Positions 44,654 to 63,934 of a stretch of DNA of 64,000 nt are shown in pieces. This DNA comes from Vicinamibacterales bacterium. GTDB taxonomy: Bacteria; Acidobacteriota; Vicinamibacteria; Vicinamibacterales; Fen-181. The translations under genes and the position numbers were made by a program. The stretch covers positions 1 through 64,000 of the forward strand of contig DASXVO010000046.1 of the NCBI GenBank assembly GCA_036504215.1, written 5' to 3'. Each line of letters begins with the position of its first letter. Positions within the stretch are counted from its first letter, which is position 1. The notes under the pieces are model-generated. The model was not told the origin of the DNA and did no database searches. It saw only the letters and a list, made by a program, of their open reading frames with translations.

Positions 44654-44856
44654 GGGTCACGGTGCTCGCCACATCAGCCTCCGCCATCAGTACCCACGGC
44701 GGCTCGCGGGCGTCAAGGCCGGCACGACCACGATCGATCGCGGGGCGTCGAGGCCGTATCGGTACTCGAAGTCTGCGGGAGCACGCGGCGTCGAGACGGA
44801 TGGAGACGCGAGGGACTGGCGGTCCCTGCCGACGAACCCGTATCATTCCGGGCAGG

Positions 44857-45678
44857 ATGAAGGCTGTTCTCTCCTTTGCCGGCAGCGCGGTGGAGGTCTG
44901 CGCCCACGGCCCGCGGGCCGTGGCGCTGATGGATTTCCTGTTCCACCAGGTGCCGCGTGATCCCGGGGCGAAGCCGCACGCCAGGTTCGAACTGTCGGAG
45001 GCCGTGGGCGGTCTCTCGCTGTCGATCGACGATGCCGTCTGCTTCGAGGGCGCGGATGACGGGACGGCTGGCAGCGTGTTCGTTGGCGAGGTGATGTACC
45101 AGATCGCCTGCCGAAGCCGTGGGGGGTTGCTCTTCCACGCGGCCGCGCTGGCCCACCACGGTCAAAGCGTCCTCCTGCCCGGCAAGTCCCGAAGCGGAAA
45201 GACGACGCTCGTCGCGTGGCTTGCGGCGAAGGGTTTCGATTACCTCACCGACGAGATGGTCTTCGTGCCTTCCGGCGGAACGGCCATCGACGCGTTCAGC
45301 CGACCGCTCCAGCTCCGACGTGCGTCGCGCCCGGTGATCGAGAACCTGATCGGCCCACTGCCGGCCGAGGCCGTTCAGGTGGGTTCGGCCTTCGATCTCA
45401 TCCTGCCGGCCGCACTTCGGTCGACCGTCGGCATCGGTCGATCTGATCTCGCGCTCATCGTCTTTCCGCAGTACGAGGCGGCATCGCCCGGTGAGCTGAT
45501 CCGGCTGTCGCCCGCGCAAGCCGGTCTTCACCTGATGGAGGGGCTCATTAACGCTCGCAACCTGCGCGCGCACGGCTTTCCGGAGGTGGCGGCTCTCGCC
45601 CGCCAGGTTCCAGCGTACCGCGCCGCGTATTCGAGCTTCAGCCAGGTGGAGGGCGAACTGCTCTGCCTGCTGCCCTGA
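44857..45678 (+). CDS. HPr kinase-related protein (HprK-rel type)
   Basis: 273 residues from the ATG of MKAVLSFAGS with GGCAGG directly before it. The P-loop is L-P-GKSRSGKTT at 107-117, followed by the acidic pair in YLTDEMVFV (D132, E133), as in the C-terminal domain of HPr kinases. The N-terminal HPr kinase domain is absent, and the N-terminal 85 residues are typical of the HprK-related family found with PqqD and a nucleotidyltransferase. It would be an ATP-dependent kinase of a small protein or peptide, in the cytosol. Those two partners lie 8 kb upstream on the same strand, beyond the giant kinase. Confidence 0.82.
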   Translation: MKAVLSFAGSAVEVCAHGPRAVALMDFLFHQVPRDPGAKPHARFELSEAVGGLSLSIDDAVCFEGADDGTAGSVFVGEVMYQIACRSRGGLLFHAAALAHHGQSVLLPGKSRSGKTTLVAWLAAKGFDYLTDEMVFVPSGGTAIDAFSRPLQLRRASRPVIENLIGPLPAEAVQVGSAFDLILPAALRSTVGIGRSDLALIVFPQYEAASPGELIRLSPAQAGLHLMEGLINARNLRAHGFPEVAALARQVPAYRAAYSSFSQVEGELLCLLP

Positions 45679-45767
45679 GGGGGTTCTCCTGGTCTCCAGG
45701 CTCCAGGCGTGAGTGCTTGCAGTTGCGTGATCGGTGCCTGGGAGACAGTCCCGAACCCAATCCTCGT

Positions 45768-45790
45768 TACAATGAACGAACGGCCATTCA
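45768..45790 (+). promoter_or_regulatory. -10-like box and possible TetR operator
   Basis: TACAAT at 45768-45773 overlaps TGAACGAACGGCCATTCA (45773-45790), which agrees with its own reverse complement at 12 of 18 positions. It lies just before the TetR remnant. TetR regulators often bind such a site in their own promoter. If the regulator is dead, the operator is an orphan. About 70 bases upstream an inverted repeat pairs GTCTCCAGGC with GCCTGGGAGAC (45692-45746). Confidence 0.35.
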
Positions 45791-45800
45791 GCCTCTGCCC

Positions 45801-46022
45801 ATGATGCCTGTAGAAGCAGCCCGCGCCACTCAGACGGTCGCAAAGCGTTTCCGGCGCCGCGACGCCTCCCGTGAACAAGGCGACAAACGGGAAGCCAGGC
45901 TCCGAGGCGCGAGCCAGACCTTCGCGCGGTGCGGCTTCTTCAATGCCCGGGTGGCCGATATCGCGCGGGCGGCCGGCGTAGCGTCAGGGACCGCCTACCT
46001 CATACGTCCGGAACGAGGATGA
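45801..46022 (+). pseudogene. Truncated TetR-family regulator, DNA-binding part only
   Basis: About 73 codons. KREARLRGASQTFARCGFF and NARVADIARAAGVASGTAYL match the TetR helix-turn-helix, but the frame leaves the family right at GTAYL, where YFKSKD should follow, and ends IRPERG-stop. The whole ligand-binding domain is gone. The stop overlaps the start of the next hydrolase (ATGA), so a deletion seems to have joined the two. A free HTH is unlikely to dimerise, as TetR dimerises through the lost domain. Confidence 0.7.
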
Positions 46023-46801
46023 AGGCGATCGGATCGGGGCCTCCGCTCGTGCTGGTGCCCGGCGTCCAGGGCCGCTGGGAGTGGATGCGGCCGGCTGTGG
46101 ACGCGCTCGCGCGGCACTTCCGGGTCATCACCTTCTCGCTCGTCGGTGAACGCCGGAGCGGCATGGCGCTGGACGAGGCGGTCGGCTTCGACAGCCACGT
46201 CGATCAACTCGATGGAATCCTCGCGCAGGCTGGAGTCGAGCGCACGCTGCTCTGCGGCGTGTCCTTCGGAGGCTTGATCGCCCTGCGCTACGCGGCGGTT
46301 CGTCCCGAGCGCGTGGCGGGGCTCGTCCTCGTATCCACACCGGGGCCGGGCTGGAAGCCGACCGAGCGGCAGCAGGCGTACGTCCACGCGCCTCGGACGT
46401 CGGTCATCAAGTTCGTCGGGGGCGCGCCTGGACGGTTGTGGCGGGAAATCCACGCGGCGCTTCCCGGACCCGCCGAACGGTGGCGGACCGCTGCCGGATA
46501 CCTCGCCGCGATCCTGTCCGCGCCCGCTTCCGGGGTTCGAATGGCGAGACGCGTGCAACTGGTCGCGAATTGCGACCTTCGCGCCGACGCCGCGTCGATC
46601 GCGGTCCCGACGCTCGTCGTGACCGGGGAACCGGAACTCGACCGCGTGGTTCCTGTGGCCGGCACCCGCGAGTACCTGGGGCTCATCCCCGGCGCGGTGG
46701 GCCGCACGCTGGAGCACACCGGCCACATCGGCCTGATTACGAAGCCGGAGCTGTTCGCGGCGGTTCTCCACGACTTTTCCGTCTCAACGCGGAGCCGTTG
46801 A
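46019..46801 (+). CDS. Alpha/beta hydrolase
   Basis: 260 residues. The first strand is PPLVLVPGVQGRWEWM. The nucleophile elbow is GVSFGG, the acid is probably the Asp of TGEPELDRVVP and the histidine is in EHTGHIGLI, so the triad is complete. No signal peptide. The start ATG overlaps the stop of the TetR remnant. The next gene, three bases on, is also an alpha/beta hydrolase, so the two form an operon. The substrate cannot be told from sequence. Confidence 0.83.
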   Translation: MKAIGSGPPLVLVPGVQGRWEWMRPAVDALARHFRVITFSLVGERRSGMALDEAVGFDSHVDQLDGILAQAGVERTLLCGVSFGGLIALRYAAVRPERVAGLVLVSTPGPGWKPTERQQAYVHAPRTSVIKFVGGAPGRLWREIHAALPGPAERWRTAAGYLAAILSAPASGVRMARRVQLVANCDLRADAASIAVPTLVVTGEPELDRVVPVAGTREYLGLIPGAVGRTLEHTGHIGLITKPELFAAVLHDFSVSTRSR

Positions 46802-46804
46802 ACC

Positions 46805-47467
46805 ATGGTTCATCACATCCCCGGCCCGAGTGGCCGGCTCGAGGCGCTCGTCGACGATCCGTCGGCGCTCTGCACCACCGGCACGCCCGGCGCGAGCGAT
46901 CCGTTGCGGCCCCCTCGCGCAGTGGTGGTCATCGCGCACCCGCATCCGCTTCACGGCGGCACGATGCACACAAAGATCGTCTTCCAGGTGGCCAAGGCGT
47001 TCTGTCGGCTCGGATGCGCGGTGCTACGGTTCAATTTCCGCGGTGTCGGACTGAGCGATGGCACGTTTGGGGAAGGCGCCGGCGAGATCGAGGACTTCAA
47101 CGCAGCCGTTGATTTCGCGACCGCGCGATACCCGGGAATCGAAGCCTGGGCCGCCGGAGCGTCGTTCGGATCGTGGGTGGCGATGACCGCCGGCGCCAAA
47201 GACGAACGCATCAAGACGCTGATCGGCCTCGCGCTGCCGGCGAACCTCTACGACTTTTCAGCCGCCGCGCGGTCACCCAAGCCCAAGTTCGTGATCCACG
47301 GCGAGCACGACGCGATCTGCCCGCTTCGAGCGGTGCGCGCGATGTACGCGACGGCCGTCGAACCGAAGGAACTCGTCGTGATCGAAGCAGCCAATCATCT
47401 GTTCGACGGACGCCTGCACGAAGTCGCGGAAGCGATCGAAGACCTGCTGGCGCCCGCATCGTCCTGA
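46805..47467 (+). CDS. Alpha/beta hydrolase, COG2945 type
   Basis: 220 residues. VVVIAHPHPLHGGTMHTKIV is the hallmark of the COG2945 group. Nucleophile elbow GASFGSW, acid in HGEHDAICP, histidine in EAANHLFDGR; the triad is complete. Cytosolic, no signal. It follows the other hydrolase by three bases. The family is poorly characterised, and proposals include esterase or thioesterase-like roles. Confidence 0.85.
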   Translation: MVHHIPGPSGRLEALVDDPSALCTTGTPGASDPLRPPRAVVVIAHPHPLHGGTMHTKIVFQVAKAFCRLGCAVLRFNFRGVGLSDGTFGEGAGEIEDFNAAVDFATARYPGIEAWAAGASFGSWVAMTAGAKDERIKTLIGLALPANLYDFSAAARSPKPKFVIHGEHDAICPLRAVRAMYATAVEPKELVVIEAANHLFDGRLHEVAEAIEDLLAPASS

Positions 47468-47592
47468 CTCGCACGCGGCATCGGGGATCACAGGGTTACC
47501 GAGCGTTCGCAGAGACCGCGCGCCCTTTTCGGGCTCTGCGTTGAACGTGAAGGACAAGGGCGGTTCTCGAATGGTACGTTTAGAATGGACGT

Positions 47593-48189
47593 ATGCTTCG
47601 AACTGTCGGCCTCCTCGCGGTAATCTTGGCGATCGCCGCGTGCAGTTCGCGCCCGCCCGATGAGTCCGGCTATCTGAAGGAGATCGCGGCCGTGCGCGCG
47701 GCGAACGATACGATGATGCGCGCGTCTGGCTCGCCGATCTCGGCGGACAAGAGGTCGCAGTTCCTGCCGCTCGCCTACTTTCCTGTCGACCCGTCGTATG
47801 CGGTCCCCGCGGCGTTCAGGGAGAACCCGCCCACTGCCCGACCGCGGATGCAGATGGACACCTCGGCACACGAGCCGCGGTTGATGGAACTCCTGGGCGT
47901 GCTCGAGTTCACGCTCCAGGGCACGCCGCTCCGGCTGTCGGCCTTCGCCGAGGTCGGGCAGTCGGACGACCGCCTGTTCGTGCCGTTCACCGACGCCACG
48001 ACGGGAAGCGAGACCTATCGGGCCGGCCGGTATCTCGAGATCGGCCGCTCGTCCACGGGCATCTACGTCGTGGACTTCAACCGCGCGTTCAATCCCTACT
48101 GCTACTACAACCCGACCTACGACTGCCCGTACCCGCCGAAGGAGAATCGACTGGCGGTGGCCATCAGGGCGGGGGAGAAGGTCAAGTAA
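47593..48189 (+). CDS. DUF1684 lipoprotein
   Basis: 198 residues. Lipobox I-A-A-C17 after a short hydrophobic run, so it should be lipid-anchored in the envelope. DUF1684 is shown by FPVDPSYAVPAAF, YRAGRYLEIG, VVDFNRAFNPYCYYNPTY and CPYPPKENRLAVAIRAGEK. The role of the family is unknown. The gene is followed directly by a G/A-rich tandem repeat tract. Confidence 0.85.
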   Translation: MLRTVGLLAVILAIAACSSRPPDESGYLKEIAAVRAANDTMMRASGSPISADKRSQFLPLAYFPVDPSYAVPAAFRENPPTARPRMQMDTSAHEPRLMELLGVLEFTLQGTPLRLSAFAEVGQSDDRLFVPFTDATTGSETYRAGRYLEIGRSSTGIYVVDFNRAFNPYCYYNPTYDCPYPPKENRLAVAIRAGEKVK

Positions 48190-48306
48190 AGGATGAAGGA
48201 GGAAGGATGAAGGAGGAAGGAGGCATTAGAAAAGGAGGAAGGATGAAGGAGGAAAGGGGAAGGAGGAAGGATGAGGGATGAAGGACGAGGAATGAAGCAG
48301 GAAGGC
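48190..48306. repeat. G/A-rich tandem repeat tract (GGATGAAGGAGGA-like)
   Basis: About 115 bases built from GGA, GAA and TGA units, almost all G and A apart from the T of ATG, a short cattag break and a few scattered C near the 3' end. It starts right after the DUF1684 stop and runs into the first codons of the HAD gene. It contains many AGGAGG sites followed by ATG, so it offers several possible start signals. Likely to vary in length by slippage. Confidence 0.8.
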
Positions 48307-48987
48307 GGCTCGCGGGTGCTCGAAGCGGTCGTGTTCGACTTCGATGGAGTGCTGGCCGATACCGAGCCGCTCCATTTCTCGACCATCCGAGCCACGCTCG
48401 AGGCGCGTGGCGTTCCGCTGTCCTTCGAGGAATACGGTGAACGCTACCTCGGGTACGACGATGCCGGGGTGTTCCGAGCCGTGGCGCGCGACCGGGGCCT
48501 GGCGTGGGATGCGCGCGAGATCGACGCTCTCGTCCAGTCGAAGGGCCAGATATTCCGCAGGCTCGCGGCGGAAACGCCGGTGCTGTTCGCCGGCGTCGCC
48601 GAGCGGCTGCGCGAGTGGTCGGCACACGTGCCGATGGGCATTGCGTCCGGTGCATTCCGCGACGAGATCGTCATGGTGCTCGACTCGGCCGGACTCTCCG
48701 GGATGGTGCGCACCATCGTCGGCGCCGGTGAAACCACGCGCCACAAGCCCGAACCCGAACCTTACCTGCGGGCGCTCGAACTGCTCGGCCCCAATCTGAC
48801 TCCCGGCCGATGCGTCGCGATCGAGGATTCACCATGGGGCATCACCTCCGCCCGCGAGGCCCGCATGAAGGTCGTCGCCCTGACAACCAGTTGCTCGTCC
48901 GATCGACTCTTCGACGCTCACCACCTCGTCCGGTCCTTCGAAGACCTCTCGCTCGACCTGTTGAACGACGTGGCCGCGCGGTCGTGA
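48271..48987 (+). CDS. HAD-superfamily hydrolase, beta-phosphoglucomutase-like
   Basis: 238 residues from ATG 48271, which has AGGAGG five bases before it. ATG 48292 and GTG 48316 are alternatives because the N-terminus is coded by a repeat tract and the fold only starts at VLEAVVFDFDGVLADTEPLH. Catalytic motifs: the two Asp of DFDG, GIASG, the Lys of HKPEPEPYL and IEDSPWGITSA. A C1-type helical cap follows the first motif. It is a phosphatase or phosphomutase of a small sugar phosphate. Confidence 0.85.
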   Translation: MRDEGRGMKQEGGSRVLEAVVFDFDGVLADTEPLHFSTIRATLEARGVPLSFEEYGERYLGYDDAGVFRAVARDRGLAWDAREIDALVQSKGQIFRRLAAETPVLFAGVAERLREWSAHVPMGIASGAFRDEIVMVLDSAGLSGMVRTIVGAGETTRHKPEPEPYLRALELLGPNLTPGRCVAIEDSPWGITSAREARMKVVALTTSCSSDRLFDAHHLVRSFEDLSLDLLNDVAARS

Positions 48988-49000
48988 CGCGGGGAAGCCG

Positions 49001-49029
49001 TTTCAAACAGGCCCGTCCCGGCGCATAAT
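49001..49029 (+). promoter_or_regulatory. Possible sigma-70 promoter for the S9 peptidase
   Basis: TTTCAA, 17 bases, CATAAT, about 105 bases before the start codon. The -10 has five of six consensus bases and the -35 is weak. Confidence 0.35.
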
Positions 49030-49133
49030 ACGGCGACCATGCGGGACCGACGCCTCGGCGAGTGTTCACGGTCCCCGCCCCCGCAGCCCGCCCCCGATCG
49101 CCGATCCTCGCCCTGCCCCAGAAGGAGTAGTTC

Positions 49134-52197: not shown

Positions 52198-52226
52198 ATC
52201 CAATCCTTTGAATCGGGCGATCCAAA
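52198..52226. promoter_or_regulatory. Three-half-site element upstream of TonB receptor 3
   Basis: ATCCAA, four bases, TTGAAT, six bases, ATCCAA. The last two form TTTGAATC-GGGC-GATCCAAA, an inverted repeat with one mismatch. The same arrangement and spacing recur before TonB receptor 4. It ends 147 bases before the sigma-54-type element, a normal distance for an enhancer-binding protein site. Confidence 0.5.
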
Positions 52227-52372
52227 CGCCCGACAGGTACCGCGTAGAGAATTCGTGGACCTTCGTCAGGCTCCGGGAACATCGCGACCGGACCCCAGGT
52301 AATCCCGCAAGAAACCAGACCTCCAGCGTGGACGGATCGCGGTCCGGCGCGATCGGTTCACGAGCGGATTCA

Positions 52373-52388
52373 TGGCATGCCGCGTGCT
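52373..52388 (+). promoter_or_regulatory. Sigma-54 promoter-like element for TonB receptor 3
   Basis: TGGCAT-GCCGC-GTGCT: GG-N10-GC spacing and nine of eleven informative positions of TGGCAC-N5-TTGCW. The same 16-base word, with one change, lies before TonB receptor 4. Expected leader about 135 bases. Confidence 0.6.
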
Positions 52389-52486
52389 GTCGATCGGACG
52401 GACGTCGCTTCAGGTAATTCCCCCCATCCGGTCCGGCAACCCCCCGTTTGAAGCCGCCGTGGTGCAGACGTAGACGCCTGAAGTGT

Positions 52487-52519
52487 GCGTCGTTTCGGCG
52501 TCGTTTCGGCGGCGTTTCC
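52487..52519 (+). repeat. Three 11-bp tandem units in the TonB receptor 3 leader
   Basis: GCGTCGTTTCG twice, then GCGGCGTTTCC, directly before the ribosome site (AGGAGG). The period of 11 equals one helical turn. A longer array of a related unit lies in the TonB receptor 4 leader. In the rest of the 401-base gap I see only the hairpin, three-half-site element and promoter listed. Confidence 0.6.
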
Positions 52520-52534
52520 CAATCAGGAGGTCGT

Positions 52535-55500
52535 ATGAAGGTTCGTTCGGCGTTGTTGCTGGCCACGGCATTCGTGCTGGCCCTGGCCGCATCCGGCTTC
52601 GCGCAGCAGCCGGGAGAGATCTACGGGAAGGTGGCGGACGCAAGCGGCGCCGTCATGCCGGGCGTCACGGTCACACTGACCGGGACGGTACTGCTGCAGC
52701 CCATGGTGGCAACGAGCAGCGCGAGCGGCGGGTATCGATTTCCGGGCCTTGCCGTCGGCGTCTATTCGGTGAGATTCGAGATCCCCGGGTTCAAGACGTA
52801 CGTTCGCGACGCGGTCCGCATGGAAATCGGCGCGAATCTGCAGATCAACGCGGCGCTCGAGATCTCGACGGTTCAGGAGACGGTGACCGTCTCCGGCGAA
52901 ACGCCAATTGTGGACCTGCGCGAGACCGGCAAGACCAGCCGCTTCACCCAGGAAGCGCTCCAGAGCATCCCCTCGGCCCGCGACCCGTGGGTCATCATCG
53001 AGCAGTCGGCGGGCGTGGCGATGGACCGGTCGAACGTTGGCGGCAGCGCGTCGGGGCAGCAGTCGAACTTCGTGGCGCGCGGCGCGCTCATGAGCCAGCA
53101 GAAGTGGAACCTCGATGGCGTCGACGTGACCGACATGAACGCCACGGGAGGCTCGCCGGTGTACTTCGACTTCGACGCCTTCGAAGAGATGCAGATTTCG
53201 ACGGGCGGCAACGACGTCACGATGCAGTCGCCGGGCGTCTCGGTCAACCTCGTCACCAAGAGCGGCACCGACAAACTGCGTGGCTCCGGGCGCTACTACA
53301 TCACCGACCAGAAGTTCGAGTCGGTCAACCTGAATGACACCATTCGCAAGCAGGGCGCGACGTCTGGCAACCCCATTCAGAAGATCACCGACTACGGGTT
53401 CGAGGTCGGCGGCCCCATCAAGAAGGGCAAGGCGTGGTTCTGGGGCAGCTACGGCAAGCAGGACATCAACGTCGGCGTCAACGGCTTCTACAAGGCCAGC
53501 GATCAGTGCCAGACGCTCAAGGCCGACATGAAGAGCAACCCCTTGAGCCACGCCGTGGAGGACATTTGGGGCTGCCTCAACACCGACCTGACGACGTTGA
53601 ACAACTACAACGCGAAGGTGGCGGTCGAGCTGTTCAAGAACAACCAGTTCTCCTTCTACTTCAACGGCGCCGAGAAGGTCCGCAACGCGCGGAACGCGTC
53701 CGACACGCACCCGATTGAGACCACCTGGCGCCAGGGCGGCGTCGCAGATACGAGCCTCGGTTCGACCTTCTGGAAGACCGGCATGCCGAAGACGTACAAG
53801 TGGAGCGACCGCCACATCTTCAGCGACCGCTTCATGATGGAGTACCAGTACGCGCACATCGGCAACAACTTCGTGCTGGACTTCCACGATCCGAGCCTGG
53901 CGGCCGTCCAGACGCTCTACGACCAGAACACGGGCATGTACGCGCGCTCGTTCTACGCGCAGAGCATCGTCCGACCGACCGACAGCATCGACATCACCGG
54001 CAACTACTTCCTCCCGGCATTCCTGGGTGGTGACAATTCGTTCAAGGTCGGCTTCAAATACCGCAACGATGGCGCGCTGACGCTCACGCACTACGGCGGC
54101 AACGCGTACTCGGTGCTGACCAACGGCGTCCCGACCGAAGCGTGGATCTACCGTGACGGCAGCAGCGACTACCGGCTGCACAACCGGTCCTTCTACATCC
54201 AGGACAGCTACGCCCGGAAGAACCTGACCATCACGCTCGGCCTGCGCTACGACTACCAGACCGATGCCGTGGTTCCAGCCAGCATCAGCGCCGTGCCGTT
54301 CTTCGGCCAGGCGACGCGCTACGGCCAGGTGTTCAACCAACTGCCGGGTGTCGACTTCTCCGGCGCCGAGGCGGGCGTGCCGTGGAAGAACTTCTCGCCG
54401 CGGCTCGGCCTCAGCTACGACATGACGAAGGACGGCAGGAACGTCGTGAAGTTCAACTACTCGCGCTACGCCAACCAGCTCGGGTCGGGCGGTATCGCCT
54501 ACGTCTACAACCCGGTGGTCGTGACCGAAGTCGACTATCCCTGGACCGATCTGAACGGGGACAAGATCGTCCAGGCAAACGAGATCGATATGCGCGGGAA
54601 GCCGCTGTACGCGACGAGCGGGTACGACTACAACAACCCGGGCGGCCTGGCGAGGACCACCGGCACGATCGACCCGAACCTGACTGCGCCCGTCACCAAC
54701 GAGTTCATCGCCAGCTACGACCGGCAACTGACGACGGACTTCGCGGTGACCGGCTCGTTCATCTACCGCAAGTACTCGAACTTCACCGTGACCAAGCGCG
54801 CCGGCATGGACAGCAGCAACTGGGTGCAGAAGACCTTCACGCCGTCGGTGCTGCCGACGTACCCGGCTGACGCTCGCGTGGTGCCCGTGACCTACTTCTC
54901 GCCGACGTCCTATCCGGTCACGACCGTGCTCGGCAACCGTCCGGACTACTACCGCACCTACGAAGGTGTCGAGTTGACCGTGCGAAAACGGATGTCGCAC
55001 AACTGGATGTTCAACAGCAGCTTCTCGTACAACGCGGCGCCGCAGCACTATCCGACGGCCGCATCGTACGGTCCGGCGGCGTACCTCGACCCGACGAACG
55101 TGGCCACGTACAACGGCGCCCAGTTCGCCGAGGAGTCGACGTCGAGCGGCCTGGACAACGTGTTCGTGAACGCCAAGTGGATCTTCCGCATGTCCGGCGC
55201 CTACACGGTGCCGGTGGTGAAGATGGGCGTCGCCGGCTTCTTCAACGCGCGGAGCGGCTATCCGTTCCTGGCGGGCGTCAACGTGCCTTCCAGCTTGCGG
55301 AACGGCGCGGGCGCGGTCGTGGTGATCCTCGACAACGTGGGCGAGGTGCGACTGCCGACCATGCAGCAGCTCGATGTGAAGATCGACCGTCCGTTCCTGC
55401 TGTTCAACCGGCTGCGGGTCGTCGCCAGCATGGACCTGTTCAACCTGTTGAACACCAACACCACGCTGGCGGAACGCCGGACGCAGAACGCCAACAACGC

Positions 55501-55564
55501 GAACACGATCGCGAACATCGTGTCGCCGCGGGTCCTGCGTTTCGGATTCCGGGTGACTTTCTAG
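52535..55564 (+). CDS. TonB-dependent outer-membrane receptor, Oar-like, copy 3
   Basis: 1009 residues from the ATG of MKVRSALLLATAF with AGGAGG at close spacing. Signal peptide about 1-23 (SGFAQ). CarboxypepD domain at about 25-105 (GKVADASGAVMPGVTVTLTG), plug with IPSARDPWVIIEQSAGVAMD, NVGGSASGQQSNF and YFDFDAFEEMQISTGG, barrel ending VLRFGFRVTF. It is a close paralogue of the next gene, with near-identical plug, barrel motifs such as SSGLDNVFVNAKW, and upstream control region. Strong terminator downstream. Ligand unknown. Confidence 0.9.
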   Translation: MKVRSALLLATAFVLALAASGFAQQPGEIYGKVADASGAVMPGVTVTLTGTVLLQPMVATSSASGGYRFPGLAVGVYSVRFEIPGFKTYVRDAVRMEIGANLQINAALEISTVQETVTVSGETPIVDLRETGKTSRFTQEALQSIPSARDPWVIIEQSAGVAMDRSNVGGSASGQQSNFVARGALMSQQKWNLDGVDVTDMNATGGSPVYFDFDAFEEMQISTGGNDVTMQSPGVSVNLVTKSGTDKLRGSGRYYITDQKFESVNLNDTIRKQGATSGNPIQKITDYGFEVGGPIKKGKAWFWGSYGKQDINVGVNGFYKASDQCQTLKADMKSNPLSHAVEDIWGCLNTDLTTLNNYNAKVAVELFKNNQFSFYFNGAEKVRNARNASDTHPIETTWRQGGVADTSLGSTFWKTGMPKTYKWSDRHIFSDRFMMEYQYAHIGNNFVLDFHDPSLAAVQTLYDQNTGMYARSFYAQSIVRPTDSIDITGNYFLPAFLGGDNSFKVGFKYRNDGALTLTHYGGNAYSVLTNGVPTEAWIYRDGSSDYRLHNRSFYIQDSYARKNLTITLGLRYDYQTDAVVPASISAVPFFGQATRYGQVFNQLPGVDFSGAEAGVPWKNFSPRLGLSYDMTKDGRNVVKFNYSRYANQLGSGGIAYVYNPVVVTEVDYPWTDLNGDKIVQANEIDMRGKPLYATSGYDYNNPGGLARTTGTIDPNLTAPVTNEFIASYDRQLTTDFAVTGSFIYRKYSNFTVTKRAGMDSSNWVQKTFTPSVLPTYPADARVVPVTYFSPTSYPVTTVLGNRPDYYRTYEGVELTVRKRMSHNWMFNSSFSYNAAPQHYPTAASYGPAAYLDPTNVATYNGAQFAEESTSSGLDNVFVNAKWIFRMSGAYTVPVVKMGVAGFFNARSGYPFLAGVNVPSSLRNGAGAVVVILDNVGEVRLPTMQQLDVKIDRPFLLFNRLRVVASMDLFNLLNTNTTLAERRTQNANNANTIANIVSPRVLRFGFRVTF

Positions 55565-55621
55565 GCCAGAGTCAGGAGCCAGAAGCCTGAAGGCGGAACG
55601 TAGAACCAGCGAGAGTGTTGG

Positions 55622-55653
55622 GGGGGCACGGCCGGCGCCGTGCCCCCTTTTTT
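55622..55653 (+). terminator. Rho-independent terminator after TonB receptor 3
   Basis: GGGGGCACGGC pairs with GCCGTGCCCCC around a CGGC loop, followed by six T. So copy 4 needs its own promoter. Confidence 0.92.
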
Positions 55654-55705
55654 GTTGGCCTTCCGGACCGAAGACATCCGCATGTGGTCCGACGAAAGCC
55701 TGGAT

Positions 55706-55734
55706 ATCCAAACCGTTGGATCGCCAGATCCAAC
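55706..55734. promoter_or_regulatory. Three-half-site element upstream of TonB receptor 4
   Basis: ATCCAA, four bases, TTGGAT, six bases, ATCCAA. The last two lie in GTTGGATC-GCCA-GATCCAAC, a perfect 8-bp inverted repeat. The first half-site is itself in the palindrome TGGATATCCA. Spacing is the same as before TonB receptor 3. It ends 115 bases upstream of the sigma-54-type element. Confidence 0.55.
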
Positions 55735-55848
55735 TGCGCCGAAATCAGCTACCCCTTGGCGGCGTGCTGTCAGCCGTCCGAATGAGACAGATCACCGAAA
55801 TCCCAGCGAAAGCGACCGGCCGAACGGTCGGTTTTTCGAGCTCGCCCG

Positions 55849-55864
55849 TGGCATGCGGCGTGCT
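55849..55864 (+). promoter_or_regulatory. Sigma-54 promoter-like element for TonB receptor 4
   Basis: TGGCAT-GCGGC-GTGCT: GG-N10-GC spacing, differing by one base from the element before TonB receptor 3. It would give a leader of about 360 bases that includes the 11-bp array. Confidence 0.6.
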
Positions 55865-55920
55865 CTGAAACGTGCGGCGTAGCACGTCAGTCGCAGTTCC
55901 CAACTTCCTTACCATTCGGT

Positions 55921-55986
55921 CGGCGTTTCCTCGGCGTTCTCTCGGCGTCTTCTCGGCGTTCCCTCGGCGTTCGGTTGGCGTTCGGT
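55921..55986 (+). repeat. Six 11-bp tandem units in the TonB receptor 4 leader
   Basis: Six consecutive 11-base units of the form CGGCGTTCTCT with changes mostly in the last four bases. They lie between the sigma-54-type element and the start codon. The rest of the 583-base gap between terminator and start (to 56236) has no reading frame I can support. Confidence 0.75.
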
Positions 55987-56236
55987 GAGTGTGTCGTCGC
56001 TGGCTCGTCGTTCGGCGGAGGGATTTCGGTTCGGGGCTGGACATTTCGGCCGAGCTGACTACAATCCTTCCAGATTCCAGAAGCCAAGTGTAAGGCCCCC
56101 GACCCTTAGGTGACTCGTTCGTCGCGGCGTTCGTCGTCATCCTTGGCGTCGGCGTGTGGTCCGCAGGGCGCGTGCGCGTCGCTGTCGGTGCACCTGCATA
56201 CGCCCGGGCGGTGTTGTTGTCATTCCAGGAGGGAAT

Positions 56237-59200
56237 ATGAGGCTTCGTTCGGTTCTTCTGCTTGCCGTGGTGTTTGCTCTGGCCACGGCGGCCACCGGCT
56301 TCGCGCAGCGGCCCGGTGAGATTTTCGGGAAGGCCACTGACACGTCTGGCGGCGTGATGCCGGGCGTGACCGTCACACTGACTGGCGCCTCACTTCTGCA
56401 GCCGATGGTCGCCACCACCGGCGCGACCGGCACTTACCGCTTCCCGGGTCTCGGCGTCGGTGTCTACACGATCAGGTTCGAGTTGACCGGGTTCAAGATC
56501 TTTGTTCGCGATGCGGTCCGGCTCGAAAGCGGCGCGAGCGTCCAGATCAACTCCGCGCTCGAGATTTCGCAGTTGCAGGAAACCGTGACGGTCACCGGCG
56601 AGACGCCGGTCGTCGACCTGCGCGACACGTCGAAGACGGCGCGCTTCACGCAGGAAGCGCTGCAGAACATCCCGTCGGCGCGCGACCCGTGGGTCATCAT
56701 CGAGCAGTCGCCGGGCGTGGCGATGGACCGCCAGAACGTCGGCGGCAGCGCGTCGGGCCAGCAGTCGAACTTCGTGGCTCGCGGCTCCGCGATGTCGCAG
56801 CAGAAGTGGAACCTCGACGGCATCGACATCACCGACCTCTCCGCGACGGGCGGCTCGCCGGTGTACTTCGACTTCGACGCCTTCGAAGAGATGCAGGTCA
56901 CGGCGGGCGGCAGCGACGTGTCGATGATGTCGCCGGGCGTCAGCGTGAACCTGATCACCAAGAGCGGCACGGACAAGCTGAAGGGCTCGGGCCGTTTCTA
57001 TGTCACCCCTGAGAAGTTCGAGTCGAACAACCTGACCGACGCTCTCCGCAGGAGCGGCGCCACCTCCGGAAACCCGATCCAGGACATCAGGGACTACGGG
57101 ATCGAAGCCGGCGGCCCGATCAAGACGGGACGCGCGTGGTTCTGGGGCAGCTACGGCAAGCAGGACGTCAAGGTCGGGATCAACGGGTTCTACCTGACCG
57201 ACACCGCGTGCCTGGCGGTCAAGGCCGCTCCGCTCAACTACACGATCGACCAAATTCGCAGTTGCTTGAACACCGACCAGACCGTGCTGACCACCTACAA
57301 CGCGAAGGTGGCGGTCCAGACGTTCAAGAACAACCAGTTCTCGTTCTACTTCAACGGGAACCAGAAGTACCGCAACGCGCGTGATGCGTCCGACACCCGC
57401 CCGGGCGAGACCACCTACATCCAGCAGGGCGTGCAGAACGACGCGCTTGGCTCGCCGTATTGGAAGACCGGCATGCCGAAGACCTACAAGTGGTCGGACC
57501 GGCAGATCCTGAGCGACAAGTTCATGGTCGAGTTCTCGTATACGCACGTCGGCAACAACTTCGTGCTCGACTTCCACGACCCGTCGCTCGCGTCCGTGCA
57601 GCCCAGCTACGATGTCCCGACCGGCGTCTGGGGCCGTTCGTATCAGCAGACGGTCTACGTGCGCCCGACCGACTCGATCGACGTGTCGGCCAACTACTTC
57701 CTGCCCGGCTTCCTGGGCGGCGACCACACGTTCAAGTTCGGCGGCAAGGTCCGCAACGACATCGCCCACACCGAGAACCAGTGGGGTGGCAGCGGCTACG
57801 TGCGCTACAACGCGTCGAAGAACGTCATCGGCACGACGACCGAAGCGCAGATGTACCGGCCGTACCAGGTCGAGTACAAGGAAATGAACCGCGGGCTGTA
57901 CTTCCAGGACACCTACAGCCGCAAGAAACTGACGCTCAACCTCGGCTTCCGCTTCGACTACCAGAACGACCAGTCGAACCCGGCCGCGATGAAGGCGCAT
58001 CCGTTCCAGGGACAGATGACCGGTTCGGGCGTGCCGTTCACGTGGCTGCCGGCAATTTCCTATCCGTCGATCGACTCCGACGTGCAACTCAAGGACATCA
58101 CGCCGCGCGTCGGTCTCACCTACGACCTGCTCGGCAACGGCAAGACGGTCGCGAAGTTCAACTACGCGATGTATGCCAGCCAGCGCGGCACGGGCGACTT
58201 CTCGAGCACCTACAACCCGGTCGGCTCGACCTACGTCCGCTTCCCGTGGAAGGACCTCAACGGCGACGGGATCGCAACCGCCAACGAGATCTTCCCGCTC
58301 AACCCGACGACGGGTGCGGTCAACGTCCTGTCCTCGGGCGGCAACTACAATCCCGACAACCCGAACTTCGTGGGCGTCACGAACAAGAACGACCCGAACG
58401 CCAAGAACGGGTACACCCACGAGATCATCGTCGGCATCGACCGCCAGATCGGTCCGGACTTCGGGGTCGGCTTCTCGTACATCTGGCGCAAGTACGGGAA
58501 CTTCTTCTCGAGCCGACGGTTCACCACCACCCCTGGCGACTTCACGTCTGCCAACTACGCGGCGCTCGTCTACACGCCGCCGGCCTCTGCCTGCGTGAAC
58601 CCGGGAGCCCGCTGCGAGGCGGTGACGTACTACCAGCCGAACGTCAACTATCCGTCGTCGTACGTTTACGGAAACCTCCCCGACTACAACCGTAGCTATC
58701 AGGGATTCGAGCTGAGCGTGCGGAAACGGATGTCCAACCGCTGGATGATGAACGGCGGGTTCGCCTACAACAACGCGATCCTGCACTACGATTCGGCGGC
58801 GGCCTACCAGGACCCGACCAACATCAGCATGCTGAACGGCGCGCAGTTCGCCGAGGAATCGACCTCGAGCGGTCTCGACAACGTGTTCGTCAACGCCAAA
58901 TGGACGTTCAAGCTGTCGGGCGCCTACACGCTGCCGCTGTGGGACATCGGCGTGGCGGGCTTCTTCAACGCGCGCAACGGCTACCCGTTCGAAGCCGCGA
59001 TCCTCACGCCGAGCCGTTTGAACCGCGCCGGCACGGCCACCGTCATCCTGGACAAGGTCGGCGACAACCGCCTGCCGAACTTCAGCACGGTGGATTTCCG
59101 CGTGGACAAGACGTTCAAGTTCAACCGTGTTCGCATCATGGCGAGCATGGACGTGTTCAACCTGCTCAACGGCAACACGACACTGGCCAAGAGCCGGACG

Positions 59201-59281
59201 ATGAACGCGCCCAACGGCGACCTGATCAAGAGCATCCTGGCGCCGCGCGTCATGCGGTTCGGATTCAGGGTGACCTTCTAG
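56237..59281 (+). CDS. TonB-dependent outer-membrane receptor, Oar-like, copy 4
   Basis: 1014 residues from the ATG of MRLRSVLLLAVVF with AGGAGGG upstream. Signal peptide about 1-23 (TGFAQ). CarboxypepD domain at about 25-105 (GKATDTSGGVMPGVTVTLTG), plug with IPSARDPWVIIEQSPGVAMD and YFDFDAFEEMQVTAGG, barrel ending VMRFGFRVTF. Tandem paralogue of copy 3. The two differ most in the extracellular loops, for example the added Cys pair in ASACVNPGARCEAVTYY here, which suggests a different ligand. Terminator follows. Confidence 0.9.
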   Translation: MRLRSVLLLAVVFALATAATGFAQRPGEIFGKATDTSGGVMPGVTVTLTGASLLQPMVATTGATGTYRFPGLGVGVYTIRFELTGFKIFVRDAVRLESGASVQINSALEISQLQETVTVTGETPVVDLRDTSKTARFTQEALQNIPSARDPWVIIEQSPGVAMDRQNVGGSASGQQSNFVARGSAMSQQKWNLDGIDITDLSATGGSPVYFDFDAFEEMQVTAGGSDVSMMSPGVSVNLITKSGTDKLKGSGRFYVTPEKFESNNLTDALRRSGATSGNPIQDIRDYGIEAGGPIKTGRAWFWGSYGKQDVKVGINGFYLTDTACLAVKAAPLNYTIDQIRSCLNTDQTVLTTYNAKVAVQTFKNNQFSFYFNGNQKYRNARDASDTRPGETTYIQQGVQNDALGSPYWKTGMPKTYKWSDRQILSDKFMVEFSYTHVGNNFVLDFHDPSLASVQPSYDVPTGVWGRSYQQTVYVRPTDSIDVSANYFLPGFLGGDHTFKFGGKVRNDIAHTENQWGGSGYVRYNASKNVIGTTTEAQMYRPYQVEYKEMNRGLYFQDTYSRKKLTLNLGFRFDYQNDQSNPAAMKAHPFQGQMTGSGVPFTWLPAISYPSIDSDVQLKDITPRVGLTYDLLGNGKTVAKFNYAMYASQRGTGDFSSTYNPVGSTYVRFPWKDLNGDGIATANEIFPLNPTTGAVNVLSSGGNYNPDNPNFVGVTNKNDPNAKNGYTHEIIVGIDRQIGPDFGVGFSYIWRKYGNFFSSRRFTTTPGDFTSANYAALVYTPPASACVNPGARCEAVTYYQPNVNYPSSYVYGNLPDYNRSYQGFELSVRKRMSNRWMMNGGFAYNNAILHYDSAAAYQDPTNISMLNGAQFAEESTSSGLDNVFVNAKWTFKLSGAYTLPLWDIGVAGFFNARNGYPFEAAILTPSRLNRAGTATVILDKVGDNRLPNFSTVDFRVDKTFKFNRVRIMASMDVFNLLNGNTTLAKSRTMNAPNGDLIKSILAPRVMRFGFRVTF

Positions 59282-59392: not shown

Positions 59393-60766
59393 CTATTTCC
59401 GTGATCCAATCTCGTCGTACAGGTACGCCGATGCGATGATCCCGTTGAAGAAGTTGCCGAGATCCAGCTTCTCGTTGGGCGCGTGGGCGTTCTCGTCCGG
59501 CAGGCCGATGCCGTACAGGACGGTCGGCGCGTTCAGTTCGGACTGGAAGGTCGAGACGACCGGAATCGATCCGCCCTCCCGCGTGTAGACCGGCGCCTTG
59601 CCGAAGCCCAACTCGATGGCGCGGGCTGCCGCCTGGATGTAGACGTTGTCCAGTTCCGTCATCCACGGCTTGCCGCCGTGCATGCGCGTGACTTTCAGCT
59701 CGACGCTCTTCGGCGTCACCTTCCTCACGTAGTCTTCGAAGAGTTGCGCGATCTTGTCCGGATCCTGGTTCGGCACCAGGCGCATGCTGATCTTCGCCAT
59801 CGCCGTGGCCGGGATCACGGTCTTGCTGCCCTCGCCGGTGAAGCCGGTCAGGATGCCGTTCACCTCGAACGTCGGCCTCGCCCAGGTCCTCTCCAACGTC
59901 GAGTACCCCGTTTCGCCGTGCAGCTTCGGCGCGCCGAGCGACTTGCGGTACTGCTTCTCGTTGAACGGCAGCCGCTTGAACTCCTCGCGCTCCCGCTCGG
60001 TCAGTTCACGCACGTCATCGTAGAACCCAGGGACCTTCACGTGCCCGCCGCGGTCCTTCATCTGCGAGAGGACCTGCGCGAGCACGAACCCCGGGTTGGC
60101 GACCGCGCCGCCGAACGAACCCGAGTGGAGGTCGCTGGCGGTGCCGCGCATGTCGATCTGGAAGTAGCACAGGCCGCGCAGGCCGTAGCAGAGCGACGGC
60201 ACGCCGTGCTCGAACATCGCCGAGTCCGAGATGACGACGACGTCGCAGGCGAGTTCGTCCTTGTGGTCGCGGATGAACTGGTCGAGGTTCGGGCTCCCGA
60301 TCTCCTCTTCGCCCTCGAAGATGACGCGGACGTTGATGGGAAGCGTGCCCGTCTGCTTCAAATACGCCTCGAGCGCCTTGATGTGGATGAACAGTTGCCC
60401 CTTGTCGTCGGAGGCTCCGCGCGCGAACAGTTCGTTGTCCCGGATCGTCGCCTGGAACGGCGGAGACTGCCACAGGTCCAGTGGATCGACCGGCTGCACG
60501 TCGTAGTGACCGTAGAACAACACGGTCGGCGCGCCTGGAGCGTTCAGCCAGTCGGCGTAGACGACCGGGTGGCCGGGCGTGTCGATCACCCGGACGTTCT
60601 GCAGGCCGGCCGTTCGAAGCTGATCCGCCGTCCACTCCGCGCAGCGCCGCATGTCGGCCCCGTGTTCGGGCGACGAGCTGACGCTGGGAATGGCGATGAA
60701 GTCGGTCAACTCGGCGAGATACCGGTCGCGGCTGGTGTTGATGAAGTCGATGATCGCAGGATTCAT
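59393..60766 (-). CDS. M20-family dipeptidase
   Basis: 457 residues from the ATG of MNPAIIDFINTSRD, which matches the usual N-terminus; an ATG at 60811 overlapping the upstream stop (TAATG) would add 15 residues. Metal ligands: LFYGHYDVQPVD, GASDDKGQ, the Glu pair in FEGEEEIGS, DSAMF and the late DENAHAPNE. The dimerisation domain is present with TASDLHSGSFGG. No signal peptide, so a cytosolic dipeptidase. It is in an operon with a dicarboxylate/amino-acid symporter just upstream, which may import its substrates or products. Confidence 0.9.
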   Translation of the reverse strand: MNPAIIDFINTSRDRYLAELTDFIAIPSVSSSPEHGADMRRCAEWTADQLRTAGLQNVRVIDTPGHPVVYADWLNAPGAPTVLFYGHYDVQPVDPLDLWQSPPFQATIRDNELFARGASDDKGQLFIHIKALEAYLKQTGTLPINVRVIFEGEEEIGSPNLDQFIRDHKDELACDVVVISDSAMFEHGVPSLCYGLRGLCYFQIDMRGTASDLHSGSFGGAVANPGFVLAQVLSQMKDRGGHVKVPGFYDDVRELTEREREEFKRLPFNEKQYRKSLGAPKLHGETGYSTLERTWARPTFEVNGILTGFTGEGSKTVIPATAMAKISMRLVPNQDPDKIAQLFEDYVRKVTPKSVELKVTRMHGGKPWMTELDNVYIQAAARAIELGFGKAPVYTREGGSIPVVSTFQSELNAPTVLYGIGLPDENAHAPNEKLDLGNFFNGIIASAYLYDEIGSRK

Positions 60767-60810
60767 GGGTGCTCTGGCAACTCCTGTCTGAAGGTGGACG
60801 GTCACGTCCA

Positions 60811-62067
60811 TTATTTCCGATCCGCCACGATCGTGGCGACCGCGAGGTCGCCGGTGACGTTGGTCACGGTGGCGAAGATGTCCGGAATCGAGTCCGCGGC
60901 AATGAGGAGACCGATGCCGTCGAGAGGCATCCCGGCACTGAGCATCACCGGCGCGGTGACGACGAAGAGGCCACCGCTCGGAATCCCGGGGTTGCTGAAA
61001 CTCATCGCAATGGTGACGAGCGTCATCGTTGCAATCTGGATTCCGGAGAGGTGGATCCCGTAGAGCTGGGCCAGGAAGAGCGGCCCGACCAGATCCGACA
61101 CCGGCGTGTTGAGTTTGAATGTCGAGACCGCGAGCGGCAGGACGAACCCCGTGAGCGACGGACGGTCGCCGAACGACCGGCGGGTGCTCTCGATGAGCGC
61201 GGGCAACGACGCCAGCGACGATCGCGTCCCGGCGGCCACCGCCTGCGCAGGGGCGGCCGCACGCGCGAAGGCGGCCAGGGATGTCCGGCCGATGAGGGCG
61301 ACGACCGGGTAGAGGCAGATCGTCACCACGGCCAGCATGGCACAGAGCACGACCACGTAGTAGCCGACCGCACCGGCCGCGGCGAGGCCGAGGTCCTTTC
61401 CCATGCCGAGCGCGAGCGCGAATACACCGATCGGCGTGAGGCGGAGAATCCACTCGACCATGATCAGCATCGCCTCGCTGGCCGCGCGGAAGAAGCCGGT
61501 GATCGACCCGCGCGAACCCGGCGACAGGTGCGTGGTCGCCAGGCCGAACAGCAGCGTGAAGACAATGAGCGGCAGCATGGCGCCATCGGTGGCCGCGCGA
61601 AGAGGATTGGTGGGCACGAGCCCCACGACGAAGCCGCGAAGCGTTGGCAGTTCGGCCCGACCGGACTCTGCCGCGGCCTGGGCCTGGGCCCGCAGCGTGG
61701 CCGCAGCCGCCGGGTCGATCGACAGCTGCGCGAAGAGAGGCGGCCCCACGAGCGCGCTGAAGACCGCGGCGCCAGCCAGCAGCGCCAGGAAGAGCGCGAC
61801 CGACCGCGCCCCGAGCGTACCCAGGGAGCGCGCATCGGAGAAGTTCGACACGCTGGTGACCAGCAGCGAGACCACGAGCGGCACCAGCGTCATGCGAATC
61901 GCATTGACCCACAACGCGCCGATCGGCTCGAGGGCCACCGCGGCCGCCTGCAGCCCGGCGGAGCCGGAGGCGGAGACGCCAATCCCCGCCGCGAGCCCGA
62001 CCACGAGAGCGCCGAGGCCCAGCAGGGCCGGGGAACGACTGGCAACAGGCATCGGAATGGAAGGCAT
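60811..62067 (-). CDS. Dicarboxylate/amino acid:cation symporter (DAACS family)
   Basis: 418 residues with about eight membrane segments. Family signatures: VNAIRMTLVPLVVSLLVTSV, the Ser-rich re-entrant loop AAGTRSSLASLPALIEST, and FVLPLAVSTFKLNTPVSD, where most relatives have PLGAT-N-DGT. The changes in that substrate loop mean glutamate versus dicarboxylate cannot be assigned. Cation-coupled import across the inner membrane. Its stop is close to, or overlaps, the start of the M20 peptidase, so the two are co-transcribed. Confidence 0.87.
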   Translation of the reverse strand: MPSIPMPVASRSPALLGLGALVVGLAAGIGVSASGSAGLQAAAVALEPIGALWVNAIRMTLVPLVVSLLVTSVSNFSDARSLGTLGARSVALFLALLAGAAVFSALVGPPLFAQLSIDPAAAATLRAQAQAAAESGRAELPTLRGFVVGLVPTNPLRAATDGAMLPLIVFTLLFGLATTHLSPGSRGSITGFFRAASEAMLIMVEWILRLTPIGVFALALGMGKDLGLAAAGAVGYYVVVLCAMLAVVTICLYPVVALIGRTSLAAFARAAAPAQAVAAGTRSSLASLPALIESTRRSFGDRPSLTGFVLPLAVSTFKLNTPVSDLVGPLFLAQLYGIHLSGIQIATMTLVTIAMSFSNPGIPSGGLFVVTAPVMLSAGMPLDGIGLLIAADSIPDIFATVTNVTGDLAVATIVADRK

Positions 62068-62132
62068 AGGCTGTCGGGGAGAGTATACGGTGCCGGGGAG
62101 GGTAAGAGGCCAGGCTGAAGTAGAATCATCGC

Positions 62133-63770
62133 GTGATCGTCAGCCCCGAGGACAAGTACCGGCTTCTGCTCCACGTCGCCGAGGCGGCCAACGCCCACCT
62201 CGACCTGTTCGGAGTGCTCGAGGAAGTGGACGCCGCGCTCGTGCCGCTCGTCGCGCTCGACGGCATCGGGATCGTCACCGTGAACGGCGAGGAACTGCGA
62301 CCCCATGCGATTCACGTGCGCGGCATGGCGCCGAAGCATGGCGAGACGTTCGACGGCCGTGTCGCGCGGGCGCTGGATCTCTCGATGGAGGAGTACGAGG
62401 CGCGGTACGGACGGCCGATGTCGTTGCCGGGATCGGGAACCGAACTGGTGGGCCGCACGGGCCGCGCCGACGTCTGCCAGGACCTCGGCAGCGTGCGGCG
62501 GTTCCCGGAGGACGAGCGGCTCCTGTCGTTTGGCGTCCAGGCGTACGTCCGCACGCCGCTGATCTTCCGCGACCGGCTCGTGGGATCGATCACCTTCGGA
62601 CGCTTCGCGGCGCGACCCTTCACCGCCGAGGAGATCGGCCTGCTCGAGGACATTTCCCGGCTGATCGCCGGCGCGGTCTCCAACGCGCTCGCCTACGAGG
62701 AGATCTCCCGCCTGAAGAACCGCCTGCACGACGAGAACCTGGTGCTCCGGCAGGAACTCGACGAGCAGTCGATGTTCGAGGAGATCGTCGGGTCCTCCGC
62801 ACCGCTCAGAAAGGTGATCCGGGAAGTCGAGAAGGTGGCCCGCACGGGTTCCACGGTGCTCATCACCGGTGAGACCGGAACCGGCAAGGAACTGATCGCC
62901 CGTGCGATCCATCGCCGGTCGGCGCGCGCATCGCGGGCGATGATCAAGGTCAACCTGGCGGCGCTGCCGGATACGCTGATGGCGTCGGAGCTGTTCGGCC
63001 ACGAGAAGGGTGCATTCACCGGCGCGCTGCAGCGCCGGATCGGTCGATTCGAGCTGGCGAACGGAGGGACGATCTTCCTGGATGAAGTCGGCGAGGTGCC
63101 GGCCGACGTGCAGGTTGCGCTGTTGCGCGTCCTGCAGGAGGGAGAGTTCGAGCGTGTCGGCGGCAACCAGACGATTCGAACCGACGCCCGGGTGATTGCC
63201 GCCACCAACCGGGATCTCCAGGCCGCCATCGCGGAAGGACGGTTCCGCAGCGATCTGTTCTTCCGGCTGAACGTCTTTCCGATTGCGGTGCCGCCGCTGC
63301 GGGATCGCCGGGACGACATCCCGATCCTCGTCGAGTACTTCGTCGCCCGCCATGGGGCCAGGCTGCGGCGCCGGTTCCGGAGCGTCGATCGGCGGACCAT
63401 CGACCAGCTTGCGGCCTACTCGTGGCCCGGCAACATCCGCGAGCTGGAGAACGTGATCGAACGCGCGGCGATCCTGTCCGAAGGGGATGTCTTCAGGCTC
63501 GACGAAGGCATGCTACCGGCGGTCACGGCCCGCGTCGCCGACGCCGCCGCTCGGCGAAGGCATGACGACCCCGCCGAACCACCTGCGCGTCCAGCCGGCA
63601 CGCTACAGGACGAGGAGATCCGCGTCATCGAGGAGGCGCTGGCCGCGACACGCGGCCGGGTATCCGGCCCTTCCGGTGCCGCCGCGCGTCTCGGCCTTCC
63701 CGCCACGACACTCGAGTCCAAGATCAAGAAGCACGGGATCGACAAGTTCCGCTTCAAGAGCACCAGGTAG
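62133..63770 (+). CDS. Sigma-54-dependent transcriptional activator with GAF domain
   Basis: 545 residues from a GTG. Residues about 5-180 are a GAF-type sensor (FhlA-like), followed by a coiled linker at 188-212 and an AAA+ domain at about 213-450 with Walker A GETGTGKE (246-253), GAFTGA (293-298), which contacts sigma-54, and Walker B TIFLDE (313-318). The C-terminus has a Fis-type helix-turn-helix (GPSGAAARLGLPATTLESKIKK). No receiver domain, so it is ligand-controlled rather than phosphorylated. It is divergent from the symporter/M20 operon. It could activate the TonB receptor promoters at 52.4 and 55.9 kb, which is inference. Confidence 0.9.
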   Translation: MIVSPEDKYRLLLHVAEAANAHLDLFGVLEEVDAALVPLVALDGIGIVTVNGEELRPHAIHVRGMAPKHGETFDGRVARALDLSMEEYEARYGRPMSLPGSGTELVGRTGRADVCQDLGSVRRFPEDERLLSFGVQAYVRTPLIFRDRLVGSITFGRFAARPFTAEEIGLLEDISRLIAGAVSNALAYEEISRLKNRLHDENLVLRQELDEQSMFEEIVGSSAPLRKVIREVEKVARTGSTVLITGETGTGKELIARAIHRRSARASRAMIKVNLAALPDTLMASELFGHEKGAFTGALQRRIGRFELANGGTIFLDEVGEVPADVQVALLRVLQEGEFERVGGNQTIRTDARVIAATNRDLQAAIAEGRFRSDLFFRLNVFPIAVPPLRDRRDDIPILVEYFVARHGARLRRRFRSVDRRTIDQLAAYSWPGNIRELENVIERAAILSEGDVFRLDEGMLPAVTARVADAAARRRHDDPAEPPARPAGTLQDEEIRVIEEALAATRGRVSGPSGAAARLGLPATTLESKIKKHGIDKFRFKSTR

Positions 63771-63820
63771 CGGATCACGGCATTACACAGAGCCCCGAGA
63801 GGACGCAGCCACCGGGAATC

Positions 63821-63934
63821 ACGGGCAAAGTGGAGCAAGTGGCACGGGCAAGGTGGAGCGAGTGGCACGGGCAAGCTGGAGCGAGTGGCACGGGCAAGGT
63901 GGAGCGAGTGGCACGGGCGTCCCGCCCGTGCGGG
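63821..63934. repeat. 23-bp tandem repeat (four units) ending in a hairpin
   Basis: Four 23-base units at 63821-63912, each starting ACGGGCAA and ending GCGAGTGGC or GCAAGTGGC, differing at few positions. They end in CACGGGCGTCCCGCCCGTG, a 7-bp stem hairpin whose core (63913-63929) recurs inverted at 6378-6394. No unique spacers, so not CRISPR. I see no gene in 63771-64000. Confidence 0.8.

Follow-up and report, generated by a model that had tools for sequence, protein, structure and literature searches.

The nearest published case that we found to the arrangement described here is the PEP-CTERM box with the PrsK/PrsR pair (Haft et al. 2006, PMC1569441), in which an upstream activator motif is followed by a −24/−12 sigma-54 motif at a surface-related gene set, and a membrane histidine kinase and a REC-AAA-Fis activator are encoded in tandem. 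We analyzed 64,000 nucleotides of a Vicinamibacterales bacterium (GenBank assembly GCA_036504215.1, contig DASXVO010000046.1, positions 1 to 64,000 of the forward strand), hereafter the window, in which two genes for Oar-like TonB-dependent receptors are each preceded by an ATCCAA/TTGGAT half-site element and a predicted sigma-54 promoter. This operator–promoter pair probably marks an order-wide regulon that includes both receptors and is run by a REC-AAA-Fis activator encoded, together with a membrane kinase, at C18 of the same genome (G000; 5.92 Mb, 90 contigs). The overall layout, the surface-related targets, and the detection by comparative genomics are shared with the PEP-CTERM box.

Comparison with described systems

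The PEP-CTERM box ends in TTTACA, its spacer averages 63 nt, and its targets are PEP-CTERM proteins (PMC1569441), whereas the operator found here is ATCCAA-N4-TTGGAT, the spacer is roughly 100–150 nt, and the candidate targets are Oar-like receptors, a small protein with a Cys-Gly-Cys motif (CGC protein), and a DNA methyltransferase. Assignment of the C18 activator to PrsR (TIGR02915) and of the C18 kinase to PrsK (TIGR02916) was rejected, the scores of 373.1 and 140.1 bits being far below the curated cut-offs of 502.6 and 300, respectively. Because operator, spacing, targets, and families all differ, the system is considered to be analogous to the PEP-CTERM box system and not a member of it.

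The C18 pair also resembles NtrC/AtoC/ZraR-type systems in its REC-AAA-Fis architecture, its GAFTGA motif, and an inverted-repeat operator upstream of sigma-54 promoters. It differs from them in its operator and target genes, in falling below the curated NCBIfam cut-offs of all 25 matches listed, and in the N-terminal PDZ domain that its kinase carries ahead of a seven-transmembrane (7TM) region. FecIRA-type cell-surface signalling likewise controls TonB-dependent receptor genes, but it uses an extracytoplasmic function sigma factor and an anti-sigma factor in place of a sigma-54 promoter with an enhancer-type operator. Oar of Myxococcus xanthus is reported to be needed for secretion of the protease PopC (PMC6434023). 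The window receptors share with Oar the layout of a CarboxypepD_reg domain and a TonB-dependent barrel, a likeness that does not imply a cargo.

No earlier description of the regulon was found in the open-access literature searched, and no Vicinamibacterales regulon with a defined operator was found in the literature searched. The system is apparently an undescribed sigma-54 two-component regulon of Vicinamibacterales (Acidobacteriota) with unusual targets. Acidobacteria of this order are common in soils and difficult to culture. The analysis provides a testable operator, a candidate regulator whose kinase almost all good genomes of the order encode, and a list of targets: selected Oar-like receptors, an uncharacterized small protein in which Cys-Gly-Cys, Cys, and His residues are invariant, and a methyltransferase placed operon-like in most relatives. 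Coupling of a sigma-54 two-component system to a conserved DNA methyltransferase would, if true, be unusual.

The operator–promoter pair in the window, the genome, and the order

Receptor 1 is encoded at 52535–55564 (plus strand; ATG at 52535, preceded by AGGAGG) and receptor 2, its paralogue with 59.7% identity, at 56237–59281 (plus strand; ATG at 56237). Direct reading and pattern search placed the 28-mer ATCCAA-N4-TTGRAT-N6-ATCCAA with zero mismatches on the plus strand in both leaders. Predicted upstream activator site 1 (52198–52225) consists of the half-sites ATCCAA (52198–52203), TTGAAT (52208–52213), and ATCCAA (52220–52225), and predicted site 2 (55706–55733) of ATCCAA (55706–55711), TTGGAT (55716–55721), and ATCCAA (55728–55733). 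No other match occurs in the window when up to 3 mismatches are allowed, dinucleotide shuffles giving an expectation of 0.01. The block TGGCAT-N5-GTGCT (TGGCATGCSGCGTGCT) occurs at 52373–52388 and 55849–55864 on the same strand and has no other exact copy in the genome. The distance from the end of the 28-mer to the first base of this block is 147 bases in leader 1 and 115 bases in leader 2. The first-pass annotation had reported these motifs, the two distances, and the identical internal spacing, and all were exact on direct reading.

When the two −24/−12 sites, TGGCATGCCGCGTGCT (site 1) and TGGCATGCGGCGTGCT (site 2), were compared with the sigma-54 consensus (GG-N10-GC core, TGGCAY-N5-TTGCW), GG-N10-GC and TGGCAT were present in both. 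Transcription from sigma-54 promoters begins some 12 nt past the −12 GC and requires RpoN. From this geometry, transcription of receptors 1 and 2 is predicted to start at about 52399 and 55875, respectively, and RpoN is encoded in the genome (PF04552, E 2.3e-65, G000:C28). Block-shuffling the two leaders 20,000 times never produced the 28-mer and produced TGGCAT-N5-GTGCT 3 times. The promoter pattern alone was not clearly enriched: loose TGGCA-N6-TGCT gave 169 matches in the window against 139 expected from shuffles, and the sigma-54 pattern with 2 mismatches gave 25 matches genome-wide, fewer than the 38 of the reversed control. The weight therefore rests on the pairing of the two motifs and on their recurrence in comparative data. 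An Rfam search of the leaders gave no match.

Own-genome statistics were obtained from pattern searches and from about 1.2 Mb of G000 sequence that was examined. At up to 3 mismatches, the 28-mer gave 7 matches in G000 and 0 in the reversed control. All seven adjoin Oar-like receptors, and two of them overlap, leaving six independent sites. The 900-bp leaders of the 57 listed receptors make up 0.9% of the genome, and the probability that at least five of six sites fall there by chance is about 3e-10 (simple binomial). According to the first-pass annotation, a motif pair not commoner before TonB genes than in random intergenic DNA would be a refutation; the operator was found to be far commoner before receptor genes than elsewhere in the genome, and the finding thus survived this check for the motif. 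Besides the two window receptors, the pair is carried by the unlinked receptor C16:156107 (GGGCATGCCCCTTGCA) and, more weakly, by C5:136679 and C6:29972. In the C5 receptor cluster, a pair at 128273 stands in front of the small-protein gene C5:128544. In the own-genome DNA examined, a stricter scan for the operator–promoter pair gave 7 matches against 3 in the control, and a loose scan gave 15 against 15 in the reversed control, so that only the stricter criteria were relied on.

Among 60 genomes of relatives, the 28-mer with up to 2 mismatches was found 20 times against 1 in the reversed control, and a composite operator and promoter pattern was found 6 times against 0 in 162 genomes. The genome set of relatives and the set of named loci share some species, so that counts are not independent. 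One composite match lies before the receptor orthologue of G002, and a further species of this genus (L111) thus retains the pair. G001 and G002, both of the same genus as the source, are 100% and 83% complete, respectively. The G002 receptor is the most similar to the window receptors, with 73% identity over its N-terminal part, and its leader contains CTCCAA-TTCC-TTGGAT-TCCCGA-ATCCAA followed 124 bases on by TGGCACAGGACGTGCT, the remaining leader having diverged. In G029, the element is present in the opposite orientation together with TGGCACCCATCCTGCT ahead of a receptor of the same subfamily. The retention of the pair in another species and the presence of RpoN support the first-pass interpretation, by which the sites are sigma-54 promoters served by an operator of the enhancer type.

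The product of C5:128544 consists of 71 amino acids (MSLVRLLGFSTLSCGCVVGRY...VEEKG..C....HRRN). Across the order, small CGC proteins of about 70 amino acids were found in 112 of 161 genomes, including 76 of the 100 good ones, some of the matches being weak. Nearly all of the 67 named small-protein loci are from Acidobacteria, several being labelled Vicinamibacteria or Vicinamibacterales. Cys14, Cys16, Cys40, and His45 are invariant across 48 aligned members, a pattern suggestive of a metal site. Searches of Pfam, NCBIfam, PHROG, and PADLOC returned no family for the protein, and no PDB entry matched it by sequence. Its AlphaFold model (predicted local distance difference test score 78.5, about 90 over residues 1–50) contains a small three-stranded sheet, and structure searches with it gave no clear match (best Foldseek E 0.78, best VIA Z 3.3).

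Of the 62 small-protein leaders, 58 contain a strong sigma-54 site (shuffled mean 2.0), typically 38–50 nt before the start codon, and 35 contain the ATCCAA-N4-YTGR operator (0.16 expected from shuffles). Alignment of these operators gives ATCCAA-N4-YTGRA; a further ATCCA lies most commonly 20 bases past the first. In 49 of 60 loci (named loci L146–L209), a DNA methyltransferase gene with a TSPPYN motif follows the small gene on the same strand at a median gap of 55 nt; the one methyltransferase tested belongs to PF01555, and L170:10310-11272 is an example locus. Since the methyltransferase gene lies on the same strand and close behind, the small-gene promoter probably drives both genes. G000 is an exception, in which a receptor gene and a sulfatase-TPR gene take the place of the methyltransferase gene behind the small-protein gene. 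No activator gene was found near the small-protein gene in the 0.97 Mb searched, by a search method confirmed to work. A divergent relative of the small protein without a sigma-54 site was observed at L208:10001-10189, on a contig labelled Candidatus Doudnabacteria, and reflects either a transfer or misbinning of the contig.

The candidate reader of the operator and competing explanations

At G000:C18, a gene for a kinase with PDZ, 7TM, GAF, PAS, and HisKA regions is followed by that for a REC-AAA-Fis activator (about 28270–26815, minus strand), in which Response_reg, Sigma54_activat, and HTH_8 of Pfam all exceed the cut-off. Six orthologues of this activator contain GAFTGA and an identical recognition-helix region, KPTTLNEMIKR. 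The leader of the C18 kinase carries TTGGAT-N5-ATCCAC-N4-TTGGAT and TGGTATGCCGATTGCT, and the orthologous kinase operons of G001, G010, G099, and G036 have half-sites and a sigma-54 site in the same place. Among 30 kinase-operon leaders, 27 have a sigma-54 site (1.9 expected) and 16 have a palindrome matching at least 10 of 12 positions (0.2 expected), mostly 117–120 bp ahead of the sigma-54 site. Of 100 good Vicinamibacterales genomes, 98 encode the PDZ-7TM kinase. At L072 (G000:C18), positions 9497–12610 ahead of the PDZ kinase hold a gene for a 653-amino acid TonB-receptor-like protein (CarboxypepD_reg) and one for a 384-amino acid protein without a Pfam match, and open reading frames of similar size also stand ahead of the PDZ kinase in other genomes.

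The conserved sites before the kinase operon indicate that this operon is itself a target, and by parsimony its product may be the reader of the operator; self-activation by the C18 two-component system is the simplest reading and is common in operons of such kind. In the proposed mechanism, a membrane signal would activate the PDZ-7TM kinase, which would give a phosphorylated NtrC-type activator that binds the operator half-sites through its Fis-type helix-turn-helix. The DNA would then loop, and the AAA domain of the activator would open the −24/−12 promoter for RNA polymerase with sigma-54. Operator binding, phosphorylation, and the transcription starts are inferred steps of this model. Each window receptor gene would be expressed from its own sigma-54 promoter 115–147 bp downstream of the half-site operator, and the kinase–activator pair would use this operator to activate its own operon as well. 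Further targets would be the CGC protein, together in most relatives with the DNA methyltransferase gene behind it, and some of the Oar-like receptors.

The sites before the kinase operon could also belong to a cascade in which a different activator reads the operator and the kinase operon is one of its targets. About 36 activators are encoded in the genome, and the activator survey, with 87 proteins recovered across six genomes, falls short of the number of listed matches, so that the comparison of activators is incomplete. We regard such a cascade as unlikely, because a control with 85 other activator loci of the six genomes (379 kb) gave no palindrome and promoter pair, few other activators are conserved across all genomes compared, and self-activation is common for such operons.

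A local reader had been proposed in the first-pass annotation, namely the GAF-AAA-Fis enhancer-binding protein encoded at 62133–63770 (plus strand), which lies 3 kb from receptor 2, possesses a sigma-54 AAA domain and a Fis-type helix-turn-helix, and would control the two receptors by binding their operators. This proposal was not borne out. Among 159 genomes, full-length orthologues turned up in only three others (G005, G032, and G050), in all three of which the activator gene adjoins an M20 peptidase gene, and none was found in G001 or G002, although both carry the operator and the operator occurs order-wide before the small-protein gene. The absence from G002 is the weaker evidence in view of the 83% completeness of that genome. 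On distribution and gene neighbourhood, the protein was rejected as a general reader of the operator; control of the two receptors by it appears very unlikely, and the C18 activator is the better candidate.

Several observations weigh against the proposed C18-controlled regulon. About 20 of the 62 small-protein leaders have no recognizable operator, and the operator–promoter distance is variable, at about 90–190 bp counted from the operator start. In the kinase operon of G028, the half-sites are accompanied by no more than a weak promoter, and no small-protein match was found in that genome. The −12 block of the window promoters is GTGCT, a departure from the consensus TTGCT. The shuffles controlled for composition and not for shared ancestry of the leaders. 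Most of the approximately 57 CarboxypepD_reg receptors encoded in G000 are without the pair; as only a handful carry it, the pair appears to mark a specific regulon and not a general receptor promoter. Finally, the predicted 5′ untranslated regions are long (136 nt for receptor 1 and 362 nt for receptor 2), and a sigma-70-like site (TGGACA-16-TACAAT, 10/12; 56038–56065, plus strand), a possible second promoter, lies nearer to the start of receptor 2 than the sigma-54 site does. These last features could mean that most transcription of the receptors comes from other promoters, such as this sigma-70-like site, the sigma-54 sites being minor or silent. We consider this highly improbable, since a single sigma-70-like match is weak when 0.4 are expected, the search gave no such match ahead of receptor 1, and the G002 orthologue keeps the operator and the sigma-54 site while the rest of its leader diverges.

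The shared blocks are extremely improbable as chance matches or functionless remnants of the duplication that the paralogy of the receptors might suggest. This explanation is already largely refuted by the recurrence of the pair at unlinked genes: many species carry it ahead of receptors elsewhere in the genome, of the small-protein gene, or of the kinase operon. The shuffles, too, never produced the 28-mer.

Beyond control of these genes by the C18 pair, an order-wide envelope-sensing switch could be imagined, in which the PDZ kinase would sense the state of the outer membrane (for example, barrel C-termini, which PDZ domains in envelope proteases likewise sense). The sigma-54 regulon would then change the receptor set and induce an orphan DNA methyltransferase, thereby recording an envelope signal in DNA methylation. 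This extension is speculative and seems improbable.

Other features of the window and genome

CarboxypepD_reg and OMP_b-brl_4 exceed the cut-off in each of the two receptors. The Plug domain scored 22.7 bits in receptor 1, against a cut-off of 23.9, and 25 bits in receptor 2. Elsewhere in G000, reading frames of about 3,800–3,900 amino acids made up of many CarboxypepD_reg repeats were observed at C54 (about 22201–30696) and C70 (about 37962–49079).

An intrinsic terminator with a 13-pair stem and a T run (55620–55649, plus strand) lies after receptor 1 and immediately upstream of activator site 2. With this strong terminator behind receptor 1 and an operator and promoter of its own before receptor 2, the two receptor genes look like separate units. 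Both leaders also share 11-bp tandem repeats between the promoter and the start codon, a feature absent from the first-pass annotation. The repeat of receptor 1 comprises 2.9 copies of GCGTCGTTTCG (52487–52518, plus strand) and that of receptor 2 comprises 5.8 copies of TCGGCGTTCCC (55920–55983, plus strand), each within the predicted 5′ untranslated region. No tandem repeat was evident by eye in the receptor leader of G002.

Downstream of the receptors, the region 59393–63770 contains an SDF symporter gene between an M20 peptidase gene and the GAF-type activator gene. Directly behind the activator gene, at 63820–63918, a 23-bp tandem repeat is present in 4.3 copies (CACGGGCAAGGTGGAGCGAGTGG).

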